Assembly: GCA_016870995.1 (NCBI GenBank)
Contig: VFZU01000030.1
Span: 1 to 52,633, forward strand
From: Acidobacteriota bacterium
GTDB lineage: Bacteria; Acidobacteriota; Terriglobia; Bryobacterales; Bryobacteraceae
Direction of reading: 5' to 3'
Length of the DNA: 52,633 nucleotides
The position numbers and the translations under genes were made by a program. The notes beneath the pieces were generated by a model. That model saw only the letters and a list, made by a program, of their open reading frames with translations, searched no databases and was not told the DNA's origin. How positions within the stretch are numbered: position 1 is the first letter of the stretch; each line of letters begins with the position of its first letter. Positions 33,538 to 43,100 of the stretch are shown in pieces.

Positions 33538-34238
33538 AGCGCAGAGTAATACTGTTGTTGCCTTTGGCATTGTGGGCCGAAGAAGACGGGTTGCAGCATT
33601 CGCTGACGAAGTATGTGACCGACGATGGGAAGGTGCGCTATGGAGCGCTGAAGGCGGATCTGGGGCCTCTCGAGAAGTACGTGGAGAAATTGAAGAGCCT
33701 TGAGGAAGGGCGAATGGGGCTAGCAGATTGGATCAACGCGTACAACGCGCTGATCCTTTGGAGTTTTGCCAAGGAGTATCCGCAAGAGAAGGACCGGCTG
33801 AAGAATCCGTTGCGAAGGGCCTCGTATTTTTACAGAAGGAAGTTTGTGGTGGCGGGCCGGGAGCGGTCTTTGGCGGACATTGAAAACAACTCAATCCGGA
33901 AGGCGTTTCGAGAACCGCGAATTCACTTTGCGATCGTGTGCGCAAGCGCCAGTTGTCCTTACCTCTCAAGGCGCGTTTATCGGGCAGCGGATCTAAAGGA
34001 GCGGTTGGAGCAAGATGCGGTGCGGTTCATCGAAGCAGACCGGAATGTGCTGGTAAATGCGGCAGAAAAAACGGTGACTGTGAGCGAAATTTTCAAGTGG
34101 TTTCGTGAAGACTTTGGGGGAAGCGAAAAAGCTGTGCTTGAGTTTTTGAGCCGGTACAAGAAAACAGCCCGGCTGAATGAGCCGGGCTGGAGAGTACGAT
34201 ATTCAAGCTACGACTGGTCGATTAACGACTTACCCTAA
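33534..34238 (+). CDS. DUF547 exported protein
   Basis: A 234-residue protein with a short signal peptide and a DUF547 domain. Typical features are the A-D-W-I-N-A-Y-N-A-L segment, the P-R-I-H-F-A-I-V-C-A-S-A-S-C-P segment with paired cysteines, and F-K-W-F-R-E-D-F. DUF547 is related to transglutaminase/papain-like folds, so the Cys could be catalytic, but no activity is established. It is coupled to the SprT-like gene upstream. Its last 75 bases contain, on the other strand, the terminator of the neighbouring gene, and its stop overlaps that gene's stop. Confidence 0.82.
   Translation: MKRRVILLLPLALWAEEDGLQHSLTKYVTDDGKVRYGALKADLGPLEKYVEKLKSLEEGRMGLADWINAYNALILWSFAKEYPQEKDRLKNPLRRASYFYRRKFVVAGRERSLADIENNSIRKAFREPRIHFAIVCASASCPYLSRRVYRAADLKERLEQDAVRFIEADRNVLVNAAEKTVTVSEIFKWFREDFGGSEKAVLEFLSRYKKTARLNEPGWRVRYSSYDWSINDLP
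34158..34189 (-). terminator. Rho-independent terminator of the 34235-34783 gene
   Basis: On the minus strand a 10-base GC-rich stem CAGCCCGGCT and complement (34165-34189, 5-base loop) is followed by TTTTCTTG. It lies about 45 bases after that gene's stop. It is embedded in the coding 3' end of the convergent DUF547 gene, which must tolerate the hairpin in its own mRNA. Confidence 0.75.
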
Positions 34239-34783
34239 GCTGCCGCAGCACTGGTGGATGGGCGGAGCAGAAGGCACGCTTCGAGTTGTTCAAGCATTTG
34301 AACAAGCGGCTCGACGTCGACGCCAGCCCAGCCGAGGCGGAAGAGCACCAATTGGAATTCCACGCGAATCAATTGGAGTTGGAAATTGGTTTTGACCTGA
34401 TTGAGGCGGGAGACGAGTTCTGCCTCATTTTGGGATGCAGCGAGCATGATGTAGCGAAGTTTGAACTCGATTCGATTGAAATCGAGCCGCACTTCGTTGA
34501 GGTAAGTACGGAAAGCGGCAATCCTGTCCGTGCGGAAGCGAGCAATGTCGCTGGGCTTCAGACCAGAAAGTGAACTGCAAGCTTCCATCTCCCGTGGATC
34601 GAGAATCCGGGTCATGGGGCGGTAATAATCTGAAAACGACTCGCGGTCAACGCCCATGGCTTCGCCATAAGCGTTTTCTTCGAACAAAGCGTTAGCGCGC
34701 CAGCGCGAATAGAGCGTGAGACCGAGTAGCAGGCCCAAAAAGGCCAAGGCGGACAAGACGGTTAAAACCGTGGGAGTACTCAT
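34235..34783 (-). CDS. Single-pass membrane protein, unknown
   Basis: A 182-residue protein with one N-terminal membrane helix (about residues 5-25, L-T-V-L-S-A-L-A-F-L-G-L-L-L-G-L) and a cytoplasmic or periplasmic helical remainder rich in charged residues (R-F-R-T-D-R-I-A-A-F, L-D-F-N-R-I-E-F-K-L-R-Y). It ends in a short run S-T-S-A-A-A-A. No family is recognised. The gene is followed by a strong hairpin terminator inside the convergent DUF547 gene, arguing that it is a real, independently terminated gene. Confidence 0.65.
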   Translation of the reverse strand: MSTPTVLTVLSALAFLGLLLGLTLYSRWRANALFEENAYGEAMGVDRESFSDYYRPMTRILDPREMEACSSLSGLKPSDIARFRTDRIAAFRTYLNEVRLDFNRIEFKLRYIMLAASQNEAELVSRLNQVKTNFQLQLIRVEFQLVLFRLGWAGVDVEPLVQMLEQLEACLLLRPSTSAAAA

Positions 34784-34868: not shown

Positions 34869-35669
34869 TCAGCGAATCACTTTGGAGCGAGAACTGGAAA
34901 GGGATTGATTGAGTTCTTCGAGGCGTGACAGCAGGAGTTTGGCTTCTGCGGCGTCGAGCGGGCCGTGGGGCGTAGCCAAGCTCGAGCTATCCACAAACTT
35001 GATCCTTGCCAACCATGCCGCGAGCACAACAATGACACCAATTAAGCCGACGTAGTCCGCAATCCGCTGTTGTGTGGCAAATTTGCCGAGCTCAACAGAA
35101 AACCGAGATAAGGTGAGAGCAAGGAAATATCCCCCCATCAAGAATGCATGCTTCAAAATGTTGGTGGAAAGCGGAACCGGCATCCATGCAACGAAAGCAA
35201 GAAACAATAGAATGAAGAGAGTGAACCCGAGCGAAACGGCCTCTTGGTAACGGATGGCCGGCATTAGAAAAGCTAGTGTATTTTGAGATGGGGTTGAATT
35301 CAGGTAATAGAACCAGGTCCCACCAAAAGCAATTAGAATTCCCCAAAAAACGGTCAAAGTACGACCGGATGCCGCCTTAATTGCGGGAAATCGAATCAAC
35401 GCGATGGTGCTCAGTTCACGAATCAAGAGAAACTCGAATAGGGAGCTGGTGTAGGTCCAAAACAGGAAGCAAAACCCGACATAGTTGGGATCGGTGAAGA
35501 GATTCTCAACAAGGGAAATAACAATGTTGGAGGCAGAAGAGAGGGCCATGTAAACGGCGAAAAAACGGAAGGAGTGGATGAGGTCCGAACGATAGATTTT
35601 CCAGGCGATCCACAATTGAATAGTGGTGCTAAGCCACCATAAGATTTGGATATCGAGCGGCTGACTCAT
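34869..35669 (-). CDS. Polytopic membrane protein, unknown
   Basis: A 266-residue protein with about six or seven membrane helices spread over residues 5-225 and a charged cytoplasmic tail (L-L-L-S-R-L-E-E-L-N-Q-S-L-S-S-S-R-S-K). It has no signature motif. A small exported-peptide gene lies 62 bases upstream on the same strand, separated by an imperfect inverted repeat (TTTAGGGG at 35675, CCCCTAAA at 35704). The pairing of a polytopic membrane protein with a tiny exported peptide suggests, but does not prove, a shared role such as export or sensing. Confidence 0.65.
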   Translation of the reverse strand: MSQPLDIQILWWLSTTIQLWIAWKIYRSDLIHSFRFFAVYMALSSASNIVISLVENLFTDPNYVGFCFLFWTYTSSLFEFLLIRELSTIALIRFPAIKAASGRTLTVFWGILIAFGGTWFYYLNSTPSQNTLAFLMPAIRYQEAVSLGFTLFILLFLAFVAWMPVPLSTNILKHAFLMGGYFLALTLSRFSVELGKFATQQRIADYVGLIGVIVVLAAWLARIKFVDSSSLATPHGPLDAAEAKLLLSRLEELNQSLSSSRSKVIR

Positions 35670-35731: not shown

Positions 35732-35851
35732 TTAGCGAATCTCGACCTTGCAGGGCAGGCAGTTGGGGATGGGGACAATCTCGTTGGTGACGACAGGGGA
35801 GGCAAACAGGGCAGTGGCGAGCAGGGCGAAGGCAAAAATCTTCTTAAGCAT
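35732..35851 (-). CDS. 39-residue exported peptide with C-x-x-C
   Basis: Small gene below the usual length cut-off. The ATG at 35851 has AGGAG about nine bases upstream. The product starts M-L-K-K-I-F-A-F-A-L-L-A-T-A-L-F-A, a convincing signal peptide, and continues with a short mature part V-V-T-N-E-I-V-P-I-P-N-C-L-P-C-K-V-E-I-R. The two cysteines could form a disulfide or bind a metal. No family is recognised. It precedes a polytopic membrane protein gene on the same strand. Confidence 0.6.
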   Translation of the reverse strand: MLKKIFAFALLATALFASPVVTNEIVPIPNCLPCKVEIR

Positions 35852-35984
35852 GAACCAAATCTCCTAAAGGGTTGATTTAAGCTCTAGAAAAACTAAGGTT
35901 TTTGTAGTAGCTACAGGACGTATAGTCCCGACAAAATTAGATTACAGACATTAGAGGGGCATAGCTGATATTCCCTAGAGATTT

Positions 35985-36002
35985 TCTTGTTTCAGAACAA
36001 GA
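35985..36002. promoter_or_regulatory. Palindromic operator candidate upstream of the 36051 gene
   Basis: Inverted repeat TCTTGTT-TCAG-AACAAGA centred about 57 bases before the ATG at 36051. Its minus-strand reading contains TGTTCTGAAA, the same ten-base core found in the perfect palindrome at 37355-37372 beside the XRE/S24 regulator gene. Likely bound by that regulator. Confidence 0.55.
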
Positions 36003-36050
36003 GAAATAGAGAATATTCCGACAGCCAAGATTGTGTTGTATCAAGGTACT

Positions 36051-36500
36051 ATGAGTGGCGAGGTGCGAAACTGGCAAAGAAGCGCGACTGAAGATCTCTG
36101 GGAGCGAACCCTGAACCAGATCGCGACCCGAATGGGCAGATTATCGTATTTGTCGCGATTGCGGAATCCTGAAACGGATCAGTACGAGCACCACGGGTTG
36201 AGCGCCGTCTTCGGGGAAGAGGCGGCAGAGGACGCTCTGCGACGCTCGCATGCCGAATCGCTGAGAAGCTTTCTGAATTTGGGGATTCTCGACCAGGTGA
36301 ATGATGTGAAGGGCTACCTGGGTGGATTGCCGCAGTCGGCGCGGCGCTTGTTGACGAATTGGGAGAAGTTGAAGGGTTACGAAGCGATGCTTCCGCAATC
36401 GGCAAGCCTCGCACAAAAGGCGTTATTTAATGGGAATATGGCAATAATTATCCGGCATCTGAAGGCCGAACTCGTCGCCGGTGAGAAGCGTCCAGACTAA
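36051..36500 (+). CDS. Hypothetical protein beside the XRE/S24 regulator
   Basis: A 149-residue cytosolic, helix-rich protein. The ATG at 36051 (M-S-G-E-V-R-N-W) is preferred over one 18 bases upstream because it follows the operator at a normal promoter spacing. No motif is recognised; the centre has F-G-E-E-A-A-E-D-A-L-R-R-S-H and W-E-K-L-K-G-Y-E-A-M-L. Its 3' end overlaps that of the convergent regulator gene by 53 bases. Shared operator sequence suggests it is a target of that regulator. Confidence 0.6.
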   Translation: MSGEVRNWQRSATEDLWERTLNQIATRMGRLSYLSRLRNPETDQYEHHGLSAVFGEEAAEDALRRSHAESLRSFLNLGILDQVNDVKGYLGGLPQSARRLLTNWEKLKGYEAMLPQSASLAQKALFNGNMAIIIRHLKAELVAGEKRPD

Positions 36501-37278
36501 AGGCAACCCCGACAACTTGACCCAGGATTTCGATTTCCTTGGGATAGAGGAAAATTCTGGGAGGCTCGGCTGAGCTGGGGTGACTGAGAACCACAAGTCG
36601 GTCGCGGTCGAGATGACACCAGCCGCAGATATGGCCATCGCGGTGCTCAAAGAAGTAAATGGGGCGATCCCATTCGTCGGTCCAGCCGGAATTTACAACA
36701 CGATTGGAATCGTTGATCACCAGAAGCGAACCGGGCTGCAGGATGGGATACATAGACCAATCTTCTGAGCCCATCAAAGCGTAACGTCGCTTCTTTGTGT
36801 CGATCGATTTCAGCAGATGAAGAGGCAAGGTACCCCAGCGGGTGATGACGCGGCTCAGAAAGGTTGTTTTCGTGAGATCAACGCCGGGATCAAGGCTGAG
36901 AGGAGCTTGGGGGTCGCCGAGGCCGGCGGTGCTGAAGTGTACCTGGTGAGTGTTTTGGAGCTCGTGAAGTTGCGCATCCCGGAACTGGTCCGCCAAGCTG
37001 ATGCCGTACCAGGAAAGCACTTCGAGGAAGTCAATTCGATAGATGGTGGAAAGCGTGTAGAGACGGTAGACCGAAGGCACAACGCCTTTGTTCTCAATCT
37101 CACTCAGACGACTGAGCCCGATCGAGTATTCCTCGTTCGAGTGGCTATCAGCGATTTTCTGACTGGCAACTTCGACCTCGCGGAATTTCAATCCGAGCCG
37201 CTCTCTTGCCTTGCGCAGCCGTTGGCCTGCTTCGTCAGTGGTTATGGTGATCTTACCAGGTGCGGAAACACCCGCCAT
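36448..37278 (-). CDS. XRE/S24-like transcriptional regulator
   Basis: A 276-residue DNA-binding regulator. The ATG at 37278 is chosen because the open frame upstream to 37449 reads through the operator and an implausible leader. Residues about 18-95 form an XRE helix-turn-helix (R-L-R-K-A-R-E-R-L-G-L-K-F-R-E-V-E and L-S-R-L-S-E-I-E-N-K). The C-terminal half resembles LexA/S24-type regulators: G-S-E-D-W-S-M-Y-P-I-L-Q-P-G-S-L-L-V-I, with the Ser of a Ser-Lys dyad; a matching Lys was not located. It could respond to a ligand or be cleaved. It is divergent from ubiX with a perfect palindrome between them. Confidence 0.75.
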   Translation of the reverse strand: MAGVSAPGKITITTDEAGQRLRKARERLGLKFREVEVASQKIADSHSNEEYSIGLSRLSEIENKGVVPSVYRLYTLSTIYRIDFLEVLSWYGISLADQFRDAQLHELQNTHQVHFSTAGLGDPQAPLSLDPGVDLTKTTFLSRVITRWGTLPLHLLKSIDTKKRRYALMGSEDWSMYPILQPGSLLVINDSNRVVNSGWTDEWDRPIYFFEHRDGHICGWCHLDRDRLVVLSHPSSAEPPRIFLYPKEIEILGQVVGVAFSLDASHRRRVRPSDAG

Positions 37279-37354
37279 ATGAGAAACTTCCCATAGATTT
37301 ATTTCCGAGTATAAAGCAGAAAGAATGCGAAACGAGCAATAAAAGGTTGGGAGC

Positions 37355-37372
37355 TGTTCTGAAAACAGAACA
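37355..37372. promoter_or_regulatory. Perfect palindromic operator between regulator and ubiX
   Basis: TGTTCTG-AAAA-CAGAACA, 7-base perfect arms around AAAA. It lies 30 bases before the ubiX ATG and 76 before the regulator ATG. It shares the core TGTTCTGAAA with the element at 35985-36002. Probable autoregulatory site of the XRE/S24-like protein that may also affect ubiX-pheA. Confidence 0.65.
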
Positions 37373-37402
37373 ATCAGGCCGTTGTGGCAGAAAGAGCAGG
37401 GG

Positions 37403-37966
37403 ATGAAGCGCAGAATTGTGGTGGGGATGAGCGGAGCTTCGGGCAGCATTTATGGGTTGAGAATTCTGGAGAAATTGAAGAAGCGGGAAGAGGTGGAAAC
37501 GCACCTGATCCTGACCCGGAGTGCGGAACGGACGATGTACCTGGAGACAAAGAAGCTGGCGGCTGAGGCAAAAGAGCTGGCCGATCATTCCTATCCGGTG
37601 GAGGATATTGGGTGCAAACTGGCGAGCGGGAGTTTTCCGGTAGAGGCGATGGTGGTGGCACCGTGTTCGATCCACACGATGTCGGCGATTGCGATGGGGA
37701 TTTCGTCGAATCTGCTGGTGCGGGCGGCGGATGTGACATTAAAGGAGAGGCGCAAGCTGATTCTGATGGTGCGGGAGACGCCGTTGCACGTTGGACACCT
37801 GCGAACGATGGTGAGTTTGGCGGAGATGGGAGCCATCGTGGCTCCGCCGGTTGCCGCCTTTTATACAAATCCGATGACAGTTCTTGATATCGTGGATCAT
37901 TCGGTGGATCGTGTCCTCGACCTGCTCGGTCTGCCGGCTGAGGATGCCAAGCGATGGGAACCATAG
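37403..37966 (+). CDS. ubiX: UbiX-type flavin prenyltransferase
   Basis: A 187-residue protein that prenylates FMN to make the cofactor of UbiD-type decarboxylases. It has G-M-S-G-A-S-G-S near the N-terminus, the P-C-S-I-H-T-M-S-A-I segment for flavin binding and V-R-E-T-P-L-H. The ATG at 37403 fits the family; the frame begins at 37382. The pheA start follows 7 bases after the stop, so they form an operon. The association of a UbiD-cofactor enzyme with phenylalanine synthesis may reflect general aromatic or quinone metabolism; no ubiD gene is in the window. Confidence 0.9.
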   Translation: MKRRIVVGMSGASGSIYGLRILEKLKKREEVETHLILTRSAERTMYLETKKLAAEAKELADHSYPVEDIGCKLASGSFPVEAMVVAPCSIHTMSAIAMGISSNLLVRAADVTLKERRKLILMVRETPLHVGHLRTMVSLAEMGAIVAPPVAAFYTNPMTVLDIVDHSVDRVLDLLGLPAEDAKRWEP

Positions 37967-37973
37967 GCGGGAT

Positions 37974-38810
37974 ATGAAACAGAATAAGGAATTTGTGAGA
38001 GCCGGATTTCAGGGCGAACGCGGTGCGTTTAGCGAAATTGCCGTGCGGCAGTTGCTGGGCAGCGAAAGCGATCCGATTCCATTCGAGTGGTTTGACGGGG
38101 TGTTCGCGGCGCTGGTGGATAAGAAGATCGACGCGGCAGTGATTCCGATGGAGAACACGCTGCATGGCAGTGTGATTGAGAATTTCGATCACCTCTTGAA
38201 TCACGATGTGGAAGTGGTGGGTGAGACCAGCGTTCGGATTGTGCATAACCTGATCGCGTTGCCGGGTGTCGCATTCAAGGACATCAAGGAAGTCTATTCG
38301 CATCCGGTGGCGTTGAATCAGTGTTTGAAGTTCTTGCAGCAAAACCCGCAGGTAGAGAAAAAGAGCTTTTACGATACGGCCGGAAGCGTAAAGATGCTGG
38401 CTGAGAAGAAGCGGCGGGATGCGGCAGCGATTGCCTCGAATCTATCGGCTGATATTTATGGTGCACGGATTTTGAAGCGGGGGATTGAGGACGACCGGGC
38501 GAACTTCACGCGGTTCTTTTTGCTGCAGCGCAAGGGCGGCAACGTCAAGGGCAAGATGCCGGTGGCGAGAAAGGTCTCGATCGTATTCTCAACAAAGAAC
38601 GAGCCGGGCAGTTTGTTTCGGGCACTGGCAGCACTCGCGCTCAGGGATATCAGCCTGAACAAGATCGAAAGCCGGCCCCTGAAGGGCAAGCCTTGGGAGT
38701 ACCTGTTCTATGTGGACTTTGAGGGGACGCTCAAAGATGTAAAGGTGCAGAATGCGATTCGGCACCTCGAAGAAGTAGCAGACTTCCTCAAGGTACTTGG
38801 CGGATATTAA
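37974..38810 (+). CDS. pheA: Prephenate dehydratase
   Basis: A 278-residue enzyme converting prephenate to phenylpyruvate in phenylalanine synthesis. The catalytic domain carries V-I-P-M-E-N-T-L-H-G-S-V and the T-R-F motif in A-N-F-T-R-F-F-L-L; a C-terminal ACT domain has the feedback-binding N-E-P-G-S-L and E-S-R-P sequences. A chorismate mutase domain is absent, so this is the monofunctional form. The ATG at 37974 follows an AGGCGGG stretch. Its stop interlocks with that of the convergent heme/copper protein gene (TTAA). Confidence 0.92.
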   Translation: MKQNKEFVRAGFQGERGAFSEIAVRQLLGSESDPIPFEWFDGVFAALVDKKIDAAVIPMENTLHGSVIENFDHLLNHDVEVVGETSVRIVHNLIALPGVAFKDIKEVYSHPVALNQCLKFLQQNPQVEKKSFYDTAGSVKMLAEKKRRDAAAIASNLSADIYGARILKRGIEDDRANFTRFFLLQRKGGNVKGKMPVARKVSIVFSTKNEPGSLFRALAALALRDISLNKIESRPLKGKPWEYLFYVDFEGTLKDVKVQNAIRHLEEVADFLKVLGGY

Positions 38811-40175: not shown

Positions 40176-43100
40176 ATGACAAAAACGAAATTAACCACGT
40201 TGGTTATCGGGCTCATGTTGAGCTGTGGTTTGGCCTTGGGCCAGGTTGCAGCGGGATCACTGAGCGGAACCATTACTGATGCGAACGGCGCTGCAGTGCC
40301 GGGTGCGAAACTAACCGCGACAAGTGCTGACAATGGATCGAAGATCGAGGCGACGAGCTCGGACGCTGGACTGTATGTATTTCCCGCAGTTCCGGCAGGC
40401 CGCTACTCGCTTGGGGTCGAAAAGACAGGCTTTAAGAAGCTGTCACGGACGAACATTGAAGTTCGCGTTGCGCAGCGCGTCGACTTGGATCTCAAGTTGG
40501 AAGTGGGCGATGTGCAACAGTCGATCGAAGTAACAGCGGAAACGCCGTTGCTTGAGACGTCGACCAGCGACAAGAGCACGAACTTCTCGCCGAAGTTCAT
40601 GAACGAAGTGCCTCTCTTCACTGGCGCCATTCGTAACCCGCGTAACTTCATCAGCTATCTGCCCGGCGTGAACGCCGGGGCGGAGTTGAGCATCTCCGGA
40701 TCGGGCGGTCGTGCACAGGAAGTGCAGATTGACGGCGCGTCGGCGATCATTCCTGAGTCGGGCGGCACCGTGTTCAACATGCCTTCCGCGGAAATGTTCC
40801 AGGAATTCAAGCTGACCACCGGTGGTTACTCGGCCGAGTATGGGCGCTTCGGCGGCGGCGTGGAAACGTACCTGACCAAGAGCGGCAGCAACTGGTATCA
40901 CGGTACGGCGTTTTTGAACATGCGCCGCGATATCTGGAATGCGAACGCCTGGGCGCGCAACGCGAACCCGAACCCGGCACAGAATTTCCGGCCGAAAGAA
41001 CGGCAGAACGAAGTCGGTGGCGCGGGCGGCGGTCCGGTTTACATCCCCAAGATTTATGACGGCCGCAACAAGAGCTTCTTCTATTACACCTACACGCAGC
41101 GATTGCTGCCGGCAAACATCGGCTTCCCGCTGAGCACGCTGCCGACCGCACAGATGAAGCAGGGAGACTTTTCGCAACTGGGAACGCAGCTGATTTACGA
41201 CCCGGCGACAACTTCGGGCAACACGCGTACGCCTTTCCCTAACAACCGCATCCCGACGAATCGGTTCAGCAGCGTGGCGCGGAATCTGCTCCCGCTGATT
41301 CCGGATGCGAATCGGCCGACACTTTTGCAGAACTACGACTTCGTGAACCAACAGACGATTGAGCAGAAAATTTGGAGCATCAAGGCCGACCATGCGTTTT
41401 CAACGACGAACCGGCTCTCCTTCTTTTTGAGCAAGGAAAACGGCGGCAGCAACGACACCACCAACTTCAGTGGCCCGATCGGCAATGGATTGGGCTTTCA
41501 AGGACAGCTGCCCTGGAACATTCGCATCAATCACGATTACTCGTTTAGCCCGGCGTTGTTTATGCACACCACCTTTGGCTATTCAGCAACACGGCAGGTT
41601 TGGGACAACCCTGCACAGGCCGGATTCGGCTCGAAGTTGGGGATTCCCGGGTTGGCGGCTGAAGCCGATGCCATGCCTCGCATCCAATTCCGTGGACAGG
41701 CCGGACTATCGCCTTATGGCGTGCAGGATGGCAAAGTGGCCAATGGCGGCCAGGACAACGACACGCTCATGATCACCCAGGGCTGGACCTGGCTGAAGGG
41801 CAAGCATGAAATCAAGTTCGGTTGGGACTGGCGCAAGCTGACAACGTTTGGCTTCGATTTGGCTGGTTCGAACGGTTTGTACATTTTCAACCGTCTGCAA
41901 ACGGCGGTGCCGAACTCCACCAGTGGCAGCGGCCACGAGTTCGCCAGCCTGTTGCTGGGCGCTGTGCAGGAAGCCGACAGGGTAGTGCTGCCTGTGCTGC
42001 TTGACCAGGTTCGATATGGCTACACCTCGGGTTTCTTCCAAGATAACTATCGCCTCACCAAGAAGCTGACTTTGAACCTTGGCATGCGTTATGAGGTGCC
42101 GATCGGCTGGCACATCGAGAGCGGGAACTTTTCAAGTCTGGACATGAGCCGGCCAAATCCCGGCGCGGGCAACTTGCCCGGTGCGCTCGTGTTCCATGGG
42201 AATGGTCCTGGCCGAACTGGGTTGAAGCGGCCTTACAAGACCGACTGGTCAAACATCGGACCGCGCCTGGGCTTTGCTTACCAGGTTGCGCCCAAGACCG
42301 TGATCCGTGGTGGCTGGGGAATCTTCTACCAGACCCTCGGCAACGGTGGTTGCGGGTGCCGTCAAGGCTTTGCAAACAGGATCACGCTGGTTGGTAACAG
42401 TGCGGATCCGGTCCTGAACTGGGATGGCGGAATTCCGACTCCCGCTGGCTTCCGTCCCCCGCCACTGCTCGATCCGACTCTTTCGAACTTTCAGAACATC
42501 GACTTCTTCTCTCCGAACTTTGGCAATGCTCCTCGCATTCACAACTGGAGCTTCAACATTCAGCACGAAGTGAAGGGTTTCCTTCTGGACGTTGCCTACA
42601 TTGGCAACCGCGGCAATGGTCTGAACTCAACGATCAACCAGAACCAGTTGCCGACCAGCAACCTTTCGCGTGGCAGCCTGCTGACGCAACGGGCGAATTC
42701 AGCAGCTGCGCAGGCAGCCGGCATTCGCATCCCCTATGCGGGATACCCAGCCACTGCGACGGTGGCACAGTCCCTGCGGCCCTTCCCGCAGTTCCTGGAC
42801 ATCAACGGCCGCAACACGGGCCAGGGGCAAACCTGGTACGACAGCTTGCAGACCAAAGTGGAACGCCGGTTTGGCAACTTCCAGTTGCTGGCCAGCTACA
42901 CCTGGTCGAAGTCGTTGGCCAATGCCCACTTCCGGCAGATCTTCAGCCAACAGTTCAACGTTGGTGCGCAAGATGCCTACAACCTGAACGACATGAAGAG
43001 CTTCCTGCCGTTCGACCAGCCGCATGTCCTCAATGTGGTTTGGACTTATGACATGCCGTTTGGCAAAGGCAAGAAGTTCCTTGGCACCTCGAACACGATC

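Follow-up and report, generated by a model that had tools for sequence, protein, structure and literature searches.

A putative operator-regulator pair of Bryobacter-type Acidobacteriota: an XRE regulator of LexA-like fold and the 18-bp inverted repeat conserved beside it

Acidobacteriota are abundant in soil, and a contig from one of them raises the question of which genes are governed by a regulator encoded back to back with two housekeeping genes, and in what way. The stretch of DNA analysed, called the window throughout, is the whole 52,633-nucleotide contig VFZU01000030.1 (assembly GCA_016870995.1; contig C30 of a 5.7-Mb genome) of an Acidobacteriota bacterium of the Bryobacteraceae, whose closest named relatives are Bryobacter and other Bryobacteraceae metagenome-assembled genomes of the Acidobacteriota. 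The regulator, hereafter REG, is a protein of 276 amino acids (aa) with an ATG start (36448..37278, minus strand) that combines an XRE-type helix-turn-helix (HTH) with a degenerate C-terminal domain of the LexA/S24 fold. Divergent from it lie ubiX (37403..37966, plus strand), for a flavin prenyltransferase, and pheA (37974..38810, plus strand), for a prephenate dehydratase, and convergent with it lies conv149 (36051..36500, plus strand), for a 149-aa protein. The regulator, the open reading frame (ORF) at 36051, ubiX and pheA are present as an earlier note on this DNA had described them, their coordinates having been rechecked. That note had further proposed that REG acts through two related palindromes on itself, on the 36051 gene and on ubiX-pheA. 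As outlined here, comparison between genomes makes it probable that REG, an XRE regulator of LexA fold, does not cleave itself, binds an 18-bp operator with the consensus TGTTCNGAWWTCNGAACA and controls a small, lineage-conserved regulon; an operator linked to the regulator and a small set of targets are in this respect the supported parts of the earlier proposal.

The putative operator between REG and ubiX, O1 (TGTTCTGAAAACAGAACA), is located at 37355..37372 and consists of two perfect 7-bp arms, TGTTCTG and CAGAACA, around a 4-nt spacer, AAAA. The site that the earlier note had called a perfect palindrome is thus present, with the correction that the spacer interrupts the arms and the symmetry does not extend over 18 of 18 positions. 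The 10-mer common to O1 and the second site, TGTTCTGAAA, was rejected as significant alone, since the window contains 4 copies at up to one mismatch where 2.5 would be expected, and this count of 4 is attained in 22 of 100 shuffles; a third exact copy is found at 42489 (minus strand), within a 1142-aa ORF. Comparison within the family lends good support to both the operator and its link to REG. In a first set of relatives REG was found in 23 of 41 genomes, giving 24 loci, and 23 of these (all except L021) carry an O1-like site with at most two mismatches between REG and its divergent neighbour; from the first set of REG proteins, 17 loci without a start candidate had been dropped. A larger set comprises the best 80 of 238 loci, which were drawn by homology to REG and not by the motif. 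Of these, 79 could be parsed, L243 being left out because no start codon was found; the loci are related by descent, so their counts are not independent. With the sixth base left free, the operator occurs within 300 nt upstream of REG in 79/79 loci (67 exact, 11 with one mismatch and 1 with two), while shuffles of the same upstream stretches reach two mismatches in 0.9%. Conservation of the site in relatives with the same gene order had been set beforehand as the test that could refute the idea, and conservation is what was found. Genome-wide, the exact 18-mer TGTTCYGNNNNCRGAACA is present twice in the own genome (reversed control 0) and in 174 copies in 95 of the 121 family genomes (reversed control 10). 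Operator variants with TGTTCGG and CCGAACA arms were seen in L211, L251 and L303, where co-evolution with the recognition helix is possible.

Site and regulator also tend to be lost together. When fragments are counted (G068, G124), REG is found in 103 of the 121 family genomes, and the exact site is present in 87 of these 103 versus 8 of the 18 without REG (Fisher p 0.0006). A search for ubiX covered 16 of the 18 REG-less family genomes and six genomes of another family that likewise have no REG. In nine of the 16, ubiX is retained in the absence of REG, and two of these nine carry the exact site (p 0.0002 versus REG-bearing genomes); no site with up to two mismatches was found at any of the 15 ubiX loci from REG-less genomes, in 6 of which pheA adjoins ubiX. 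Eight REG-less genomes carry exact sites; in the six of them searched for ubiX the gene is absent from G024, G058, G119 and G138 and present in 2, and the four genomes lacking both REG and ubiX look as if an assembly gap had swallowed the locus. Two REG-less genomes with 4 exact sites apiece, G097 (72% complete) and G106 (71% complete), lay outside the ubiX search, and G114, G128 and G135, from which REG, ubiX and exact sites are all absent, are uninformative either way.

The position of O1 relative to the REG promoter is likewise preserved. The best-scoring -10 box of REG is located 58-62 nt from the start of O1 in 70/79 loci, 46-48 nt in 5 (about one helical turn less), 26-27 nt in 3 and 64 nt in 1; the hexamer is TATAAT in 54 and TATACT in 15 of the 79 loci, and the commonest -35 hexamers are TTGCNN. 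In the window the predicted box, TATACT at 37308..37313 (minus strand; letters checked), lies 59 nt from the O1 start, according to the offset rule derived from the relatives. Autoregulation of REG, which the earlier note had considered possible, is very likely.

The second site has a more complex history. The dyad of the earlier note, placed before the 36051 gene, spans 35982-35991 and 35996-36005, and its centre is 3 bp off the register matching O1; in the O1 register the putative operator O2 reads TTTTCTTGTTTCAGAACA (35982..35999), with 2 mismatches to the consensus. As a call from a single genome O2 was rejected, because at 2 mismatches the own genome holds 69 matches versus 71 in the reversed control, with no excess, and a comparison between genomes was therefore needed. 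This shows a site in the O2 register within 330 nt upstream of the conv149 homologue in 52/77 loci at up to one mismatch and in 69/77 at up to two, as opposed to 0.1% and 2.2% of shuffles, respectively. A TGTTC or TTTTC arm was accepted in this scoring, with the sixth base free, and L207 and L233 were excluded for their short upstream stretches; the counts refer to upstream sequence only, matching the shuffles, and extending the stretch by 12 bases into the ORF raises them to 53 and 70. The arm distal to conv149 is usually TTTTC. At 38-39 nt from O2, on the side away from conv149, the TA of a TANNCT-like box recurs (T 68%, A 75%, 53 loci). This box, TAATCT at 35944-35939 in the window (feature 35939..35944, minus strand; letters checked, spacing to O2 as in the relatives), fits in its position a predicted leftward promoter, directed toward the genes for a 39-aa peptide and the membrane protein TM266 described below. 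In the same conservation comparison no box at a fixed distance was found on the conv149 side of O2, which is why a fixed spacing of O2 to the 36051 gene was rejected. The second palindrome therefore stands as a real site, by conservation in another register, and its fixed-spacing partner is the leftward peptide/membrane-protein promoter and not the gene at 36051.

Beyond the locus, the best and most widely shared further target of REG found in the genomes compared is probably a small gene for an AT-hook/H-NS-like protein (C19small), which the earlier note does not mention. The 68-aa protein P0006 matches Histone_HNS (the H-NS C-terminal domain) at E 0.0012 and three of its homologues do so at E 0.02-0.3, and these three match AT_hook at E 0.04-0.2, all below the curated cut-offs; P0006 itself was matched in 115 of the 121 family genomes. 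Among the 30 loci listed first by homology to P0006, 28 carry the site, 20 of them as two copies spaced 82-87 bp, and the site-less pair are L164 (from the REG-less G105) and L170. In a wider set, drawn in part by the motif, 41 of the 51 upstreams that bear a site have a second one, always 82-87 bp away (shuffles 0.22/51); the 65 upstreams collected for this gene mix loci drawn by the motif with loci drawn by the protein, and duplicate upstreams were dropped. At 10.5 bp per turn the distance amounts to 8 turns, with the AT-hook promoter lying between the two sites: counted from the first site, TTGAAA (+24) is followed by a TAAAAC-like box (+47), and the gene starts at 118-196, in most cases around 140. 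Upstream of REG, a second site at such spacing occurs in only 1/79 loci (L234). No site was found in the AT-hook gene upstreams of REG-less, ubiX-bearing genomes (L293-L299, L302, L306), and those of G119, G024 and G138 do carry sites (L304, L305; L303 with two mismatches). By eye, the AT-hook gene lies between amino-acid-permease-like and beta-lactamase-like genes, with a sodium-solute-symporter-like gene beyond (L278, L285-L287, L290, L291).

What kind of protein REG is can be judged from its model (pLDDT 76, pTM 0.46), in which the HTH and the C-terminal domain are confident and the linker between them is loose. The N-terminus is a Cro/CI-type HTH of the kind that defines XRE regulators: Pfam HTH_19 is matched at E 0.0015, below the curated cut-off, and the fold matches the HTH domains of PlcR, ComR, CI, SinR and DdrO with Z 9.2-10.6. 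In a Foldseek search with REG, 14 chains were retrieved at E <= 0.001, all of them LexA or a lambda-186 hybrid repressor, and VIA-align superposes the C-terminal domain on LexA 1jhf_B with Z 11.1 over 103 residues at 18% identity, i.e., a LexA-type fold. No Pfam S24 match was obtained, and a profile search of solved structures returned nothing convincing. Across 96 distinct proteins REG lacks the Ser-Lys catalytic dyad. The nucleophile position, residue 175, is S in 54/96 and otherwise F, T, W, M, A, R, G or N, and none of columns 206-240, the hairpin expected to bear the catalytic Lys, exceeds 8.3% Lys. The residue facing the LexA Lys would be C218 or G219, in a region where the sequence alignment is uncertain: pairwise alignment misaligned the Lys, and MAFFT was off by one at Ser-Met or misplaced it for one LexA. 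As alignments are unreliable at this point, the claim about the lysine is based on the absence of a Lys-rich hairpin column. Neither is there a cleavage site in the linker, in which no AG or CG column is conserved and such a dipeptide occurs anywhere in only 21/96 proteins. With no Lys-rich column in the hairpin and a variable residue at the position of the serine, self-cleavage of REG is unlikely, and the cleavable repressor envisaged in the earlier note was rejected. Its placing of REG outside a prophage holds: tblastn against 50,697 phage records (E 1e-5) gave no match, the chromosomal housekeeping neighbours are conserved, and a prophage origin was rejected on these grounds; in PHROGs REG matches an unnamed family (E 0.0006), with repressor families reaching no better than E 0.05. 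Conserved in the C-terminal domain are C218 (90 of the 96 proteins), W220 (96), C221 (91) and H233 (93), and a sensor made of this CxWC motif and the His is a guess based on that conservation. The own genome also encodes two canonical, apparently cleavable LexAs (C1:4342-4968 and C49:28154-28750), both above the family cut-off and normal-looking in their Ser, Lys and Ala-Gly; within 1.5 kb around these lexA genes no site with up to two mismatches was found, recA and repair genes not having been checked individually.

In the proposed mechanism, REG would bind TGTTCNGAWWTCNGAACA, probably as a dimer, a tetramer being conceivable. Relative to the predicted start sites, the operator centre would be at about -62 for REG, -58 for the leftward peptide/membrane-protein promoter and -50 for the AT-hook gene, so that at each promoter type the operator would precede the predicted -35 box, in a position from which a bound protein can contact RNA polymerase. 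Most family members examined have another operator at the AT-hook gene, located 82-87 bp downstream of the first (about +35); on the same helical face and flanking the promoter, the two could close a loop over it. Regulation by contact would be expected at the single-site promoters and repression by looping at the AT-hook gene, as for GalR at gal.

Several explanations compete with this mechanism or would add to it. Repression of ubiX-pheA by REG, with O1 over the ubiX promoter or start site, would be compatible with autoregulation and is possible, if somewhat doubtful. The extrapolated ubiX start is 17 nt from O1 in 30/75 loci, 15-18 nt in 48/75 and 5-35 nt in 61/75 (30 nt in the window), and ubiX and pheA are both beside REG in 67/79 loci. 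However, no promoter at a fixed place was found on the ubiX strand, where the best-scoring matches are spread across about 300 nt and the most frequent hexamers, TATGAT and CATGAT, resemble the REG start codon reversed. Moreover, in the 9/79 loci with a more distant ubiX (L186, L190, L192, L201, L210) or with none found (L236, L250, L251, L252), the site is retained in front of REG, and in six loci (L313, L314, L315, L317, L318, L319) ubiX and pheA are paired without REG and without the site. A plain repressor and autorepressor at all sites, with neither activation nor looping, seems rather unlikely to us: LexA and CI-type regulators commonly repress, and near-consensus TATAAT boxes suggest promoters that work unaided, but at all three promoter types the main operator precedes the predicted -35 box instead of covering it, and the second AT-hook site holds helical phase. 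Improbable, too, is that the motif belongs to another regulator of which REG is a mere neighbour and target, as might be thought from the 13 of 60 fetched site regions that hold neither REG nor the AT-hook gene and from the REG-less G019 and G140, where ubiX is kept and an exact site is present; site and REG are nonetheless mostly lost together while ubiX stays, and 4 of the 6 ubiX-searched REG-less genomes with exact sites lack ubiX as if through an assembly gap. Finally, O1 and O2 are both inverted repeats and their 10-mer, taken by itself, does not exceed chance in the window, and yet it is scarcely credible that they are RNA hairpins or chance palindromes, given that the conserved letters are the arms and the A/T centre at a fixed distance upstream of promoter boxes, that the first site would be outside the REG and AT-hook transcripts, and that conservation is far above shuffles.

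A number of observations weigh against a non-cleaving LexA-fold REG that acts through this operator. The sign of regulation is deduced from geometry alone. The link to LexA is one of fold only, from a model of pTM 0.46, and profile comparison of REG with the own genome's LexAs by hhalign found no match (probability 4%); outside the hairpin Lys is frequent, at 40% in column 192 and 61% in column 193. In the family, 16 of the 103 REG-bearing genomes have no exact site, the REG-less ubiX keepers G019 and G140 have one copy each, and no site was found at the AT-hook gene of the REG-bearing G015 (L308). In the own genus a single site, with one mismatch, is found at the AT-hook gene (L003, L145, L146), and looping is thus not supported in that genus. 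Outside the family, where REG matches at E <= 1e-10 were obtained in 15 of 297 phylum genomes (two of the own family, 11 of family f4, which is of the same class and has six full-length loci, and two of f19), sites upstream of REG are present in only one of the six full-length f4 loci (L337; one mismatch, two copies), none was found between REG and the AT-hook gene in L332 and L333, and neither f19 locus has any. With sites mostly absent upstream of REG in f4 and f19, O1 is not a feature of every REG.

The same f4 loci add an observation of another kind, namely that in two of the six (L332, L333) the AT-hook gene is divergent beside REG, an adjacency that is an independent link between both genes; ubiX was not found beside REG in any of the six, and one-mismatch sites are found near the conv149 end of the locus in 4/6 (L332, L334, L335, L337). 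Within the family, the 60 fetched site regions divide into 26 with REG, 21 with the AT-hook gene and 13 with neither, a split that is not that of a random sample, the regions having been picked partly to favour sites away from REG. The second exact site of the own genome (C11:5859) is 57 nt before a gene for a hydrophobic protein, whose same-genus homologue is also preceded by an exact site (L086). Elsewhere, by eye and with crude gene calls, sites are near genes for response regulators, a sigma-54-type activator, PEP-CTERM-like and TPR proteins and others. In G021, two small proteins resembling one family (L060 3908-4192, L063 3588-3911) were seen beside sites and LuxR-type response regulators.

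From left to right the locus of the window reads p182, TM266, the 39-aa peptide, O2, conv149, REG, O1, ubiX and pheA. Among the named loci ubiX is present in 75/79, where its control by O1 is possible, pheA in 71/79 and a conv149 homologue in all 79. The product of conv149 is predicted to be all-helical (pLDDT 93) and has Gly29, Tyr45, His47, Gly49, His67 and Pro115 invariant in 63 aligned sequences; its family is unassigned, and a fold search with the confident model gave no match at E <= 0.001. The peptide ORF (35732..35851, minus strand), the nearest one left of O2, has a signal-peptide-like start by eye. TM266 (34869..35669, minus strand) is a 266-aa hydrophobic protein, multi-pass in the membrane by eye; no family was found for it or for conv149 in Pfam, NCBIfam and PHROGs. 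The 182-aa p182 (34235..34783, minus strand) has an N-terminal hydrophobic segment, by eye, and a complete homologous ORF in 27 of the 80 named loci. At the predicted start of the leftward peptide/TM266 transcript sits a block (35906-35933) that contains a GGAC-TATAC-GTCC inverted repeat and is strongly conserved among six aligned sequences of the same genus; it could be a second operator or a structure of the 5' untranslated region. Scanned for promoters and terminators, the window yielded 1 promoter-like and 3 terminator-like sites, with no clear excess over shuffles (1.3 and 1.9).

Among the papers listed in searches of an open-access library that were aimed at REG, its family or its motif, none describes it, subscription papers being mostly outside the scope of these searches. 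The LexA and peptidase S24-S26 repressors (those of E. coli and Thermotoga and the own two LexAs) have the C-terminal fold in common with REG, which differs from them in its XRE-matching HTH, the absence of a catalytic Lys from the hairpin, the unfixed Ser and a motif of its own. GalR, which offers a likeness in operator geometry, belongs to another family than REG. According to the report on it, GalR represses gal by contact and by a loop between operators at -60.5 and +53.5, i.e., 113 bp or about 11 helical turns apart (PMC4693257), an arrangement resembling the pair at about -50 and +35, 82-87 bp apart, at the AT-hook gene, where looping would be deduced only from spacing. LexA of Synechocystis sp. 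PCC 6803 is described as having neither a catalytic serine nor the Ala-Gly cleavage site and as acting on non-SOS genes (PMC7567884); it is alike in being a LexA-fold regulator and differs in being LexA proper, REG having another DNA-binding domain, operator and regulon. These parallels with gal and with the Synechocystis LexA are likenesses, not membership. IrvR of Streptococcus mutans is LexA-like, is described in the paper on it as an exception to the RecA rule and serves a non-SOS stress; autocleavage is named there, whereas REG is without the lysine for such cleavage (PMC7101444). DdrO (6rmq_A), which is described as being cleaved by the metalloprotease IrrE (PMC7907104), has the HTH in common with REG (Z 9.8, 64 residues, 30% identity), and for DdrO, ComR and other XRE-HTH regulators only the HTH was matched.

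In all, the comparison offers an operator and a regulator of Bryobacter-type bacteria that are ready to be tested as a pair. It also provides a natural instance of a LexA fold retained for regulation after self-cleavage was apparently lost, and a comparative example of constant operator spacing at a gene whose product resembles DNA-packaging proteins. A bolder view, which we regard as unlikely, is that REG is a family-wide global regulator in which a catalysis-dead LexA protease fold serves as the sensor, with the conserved C-x-W-C and His233, close to the former active site, as a thiol or metal switch, and sets the level of the H-NS-like protein via an 8-turn DNA loop. If this were true, a redox or metal signal would be coupled to chromosome organisation in these bacteria.

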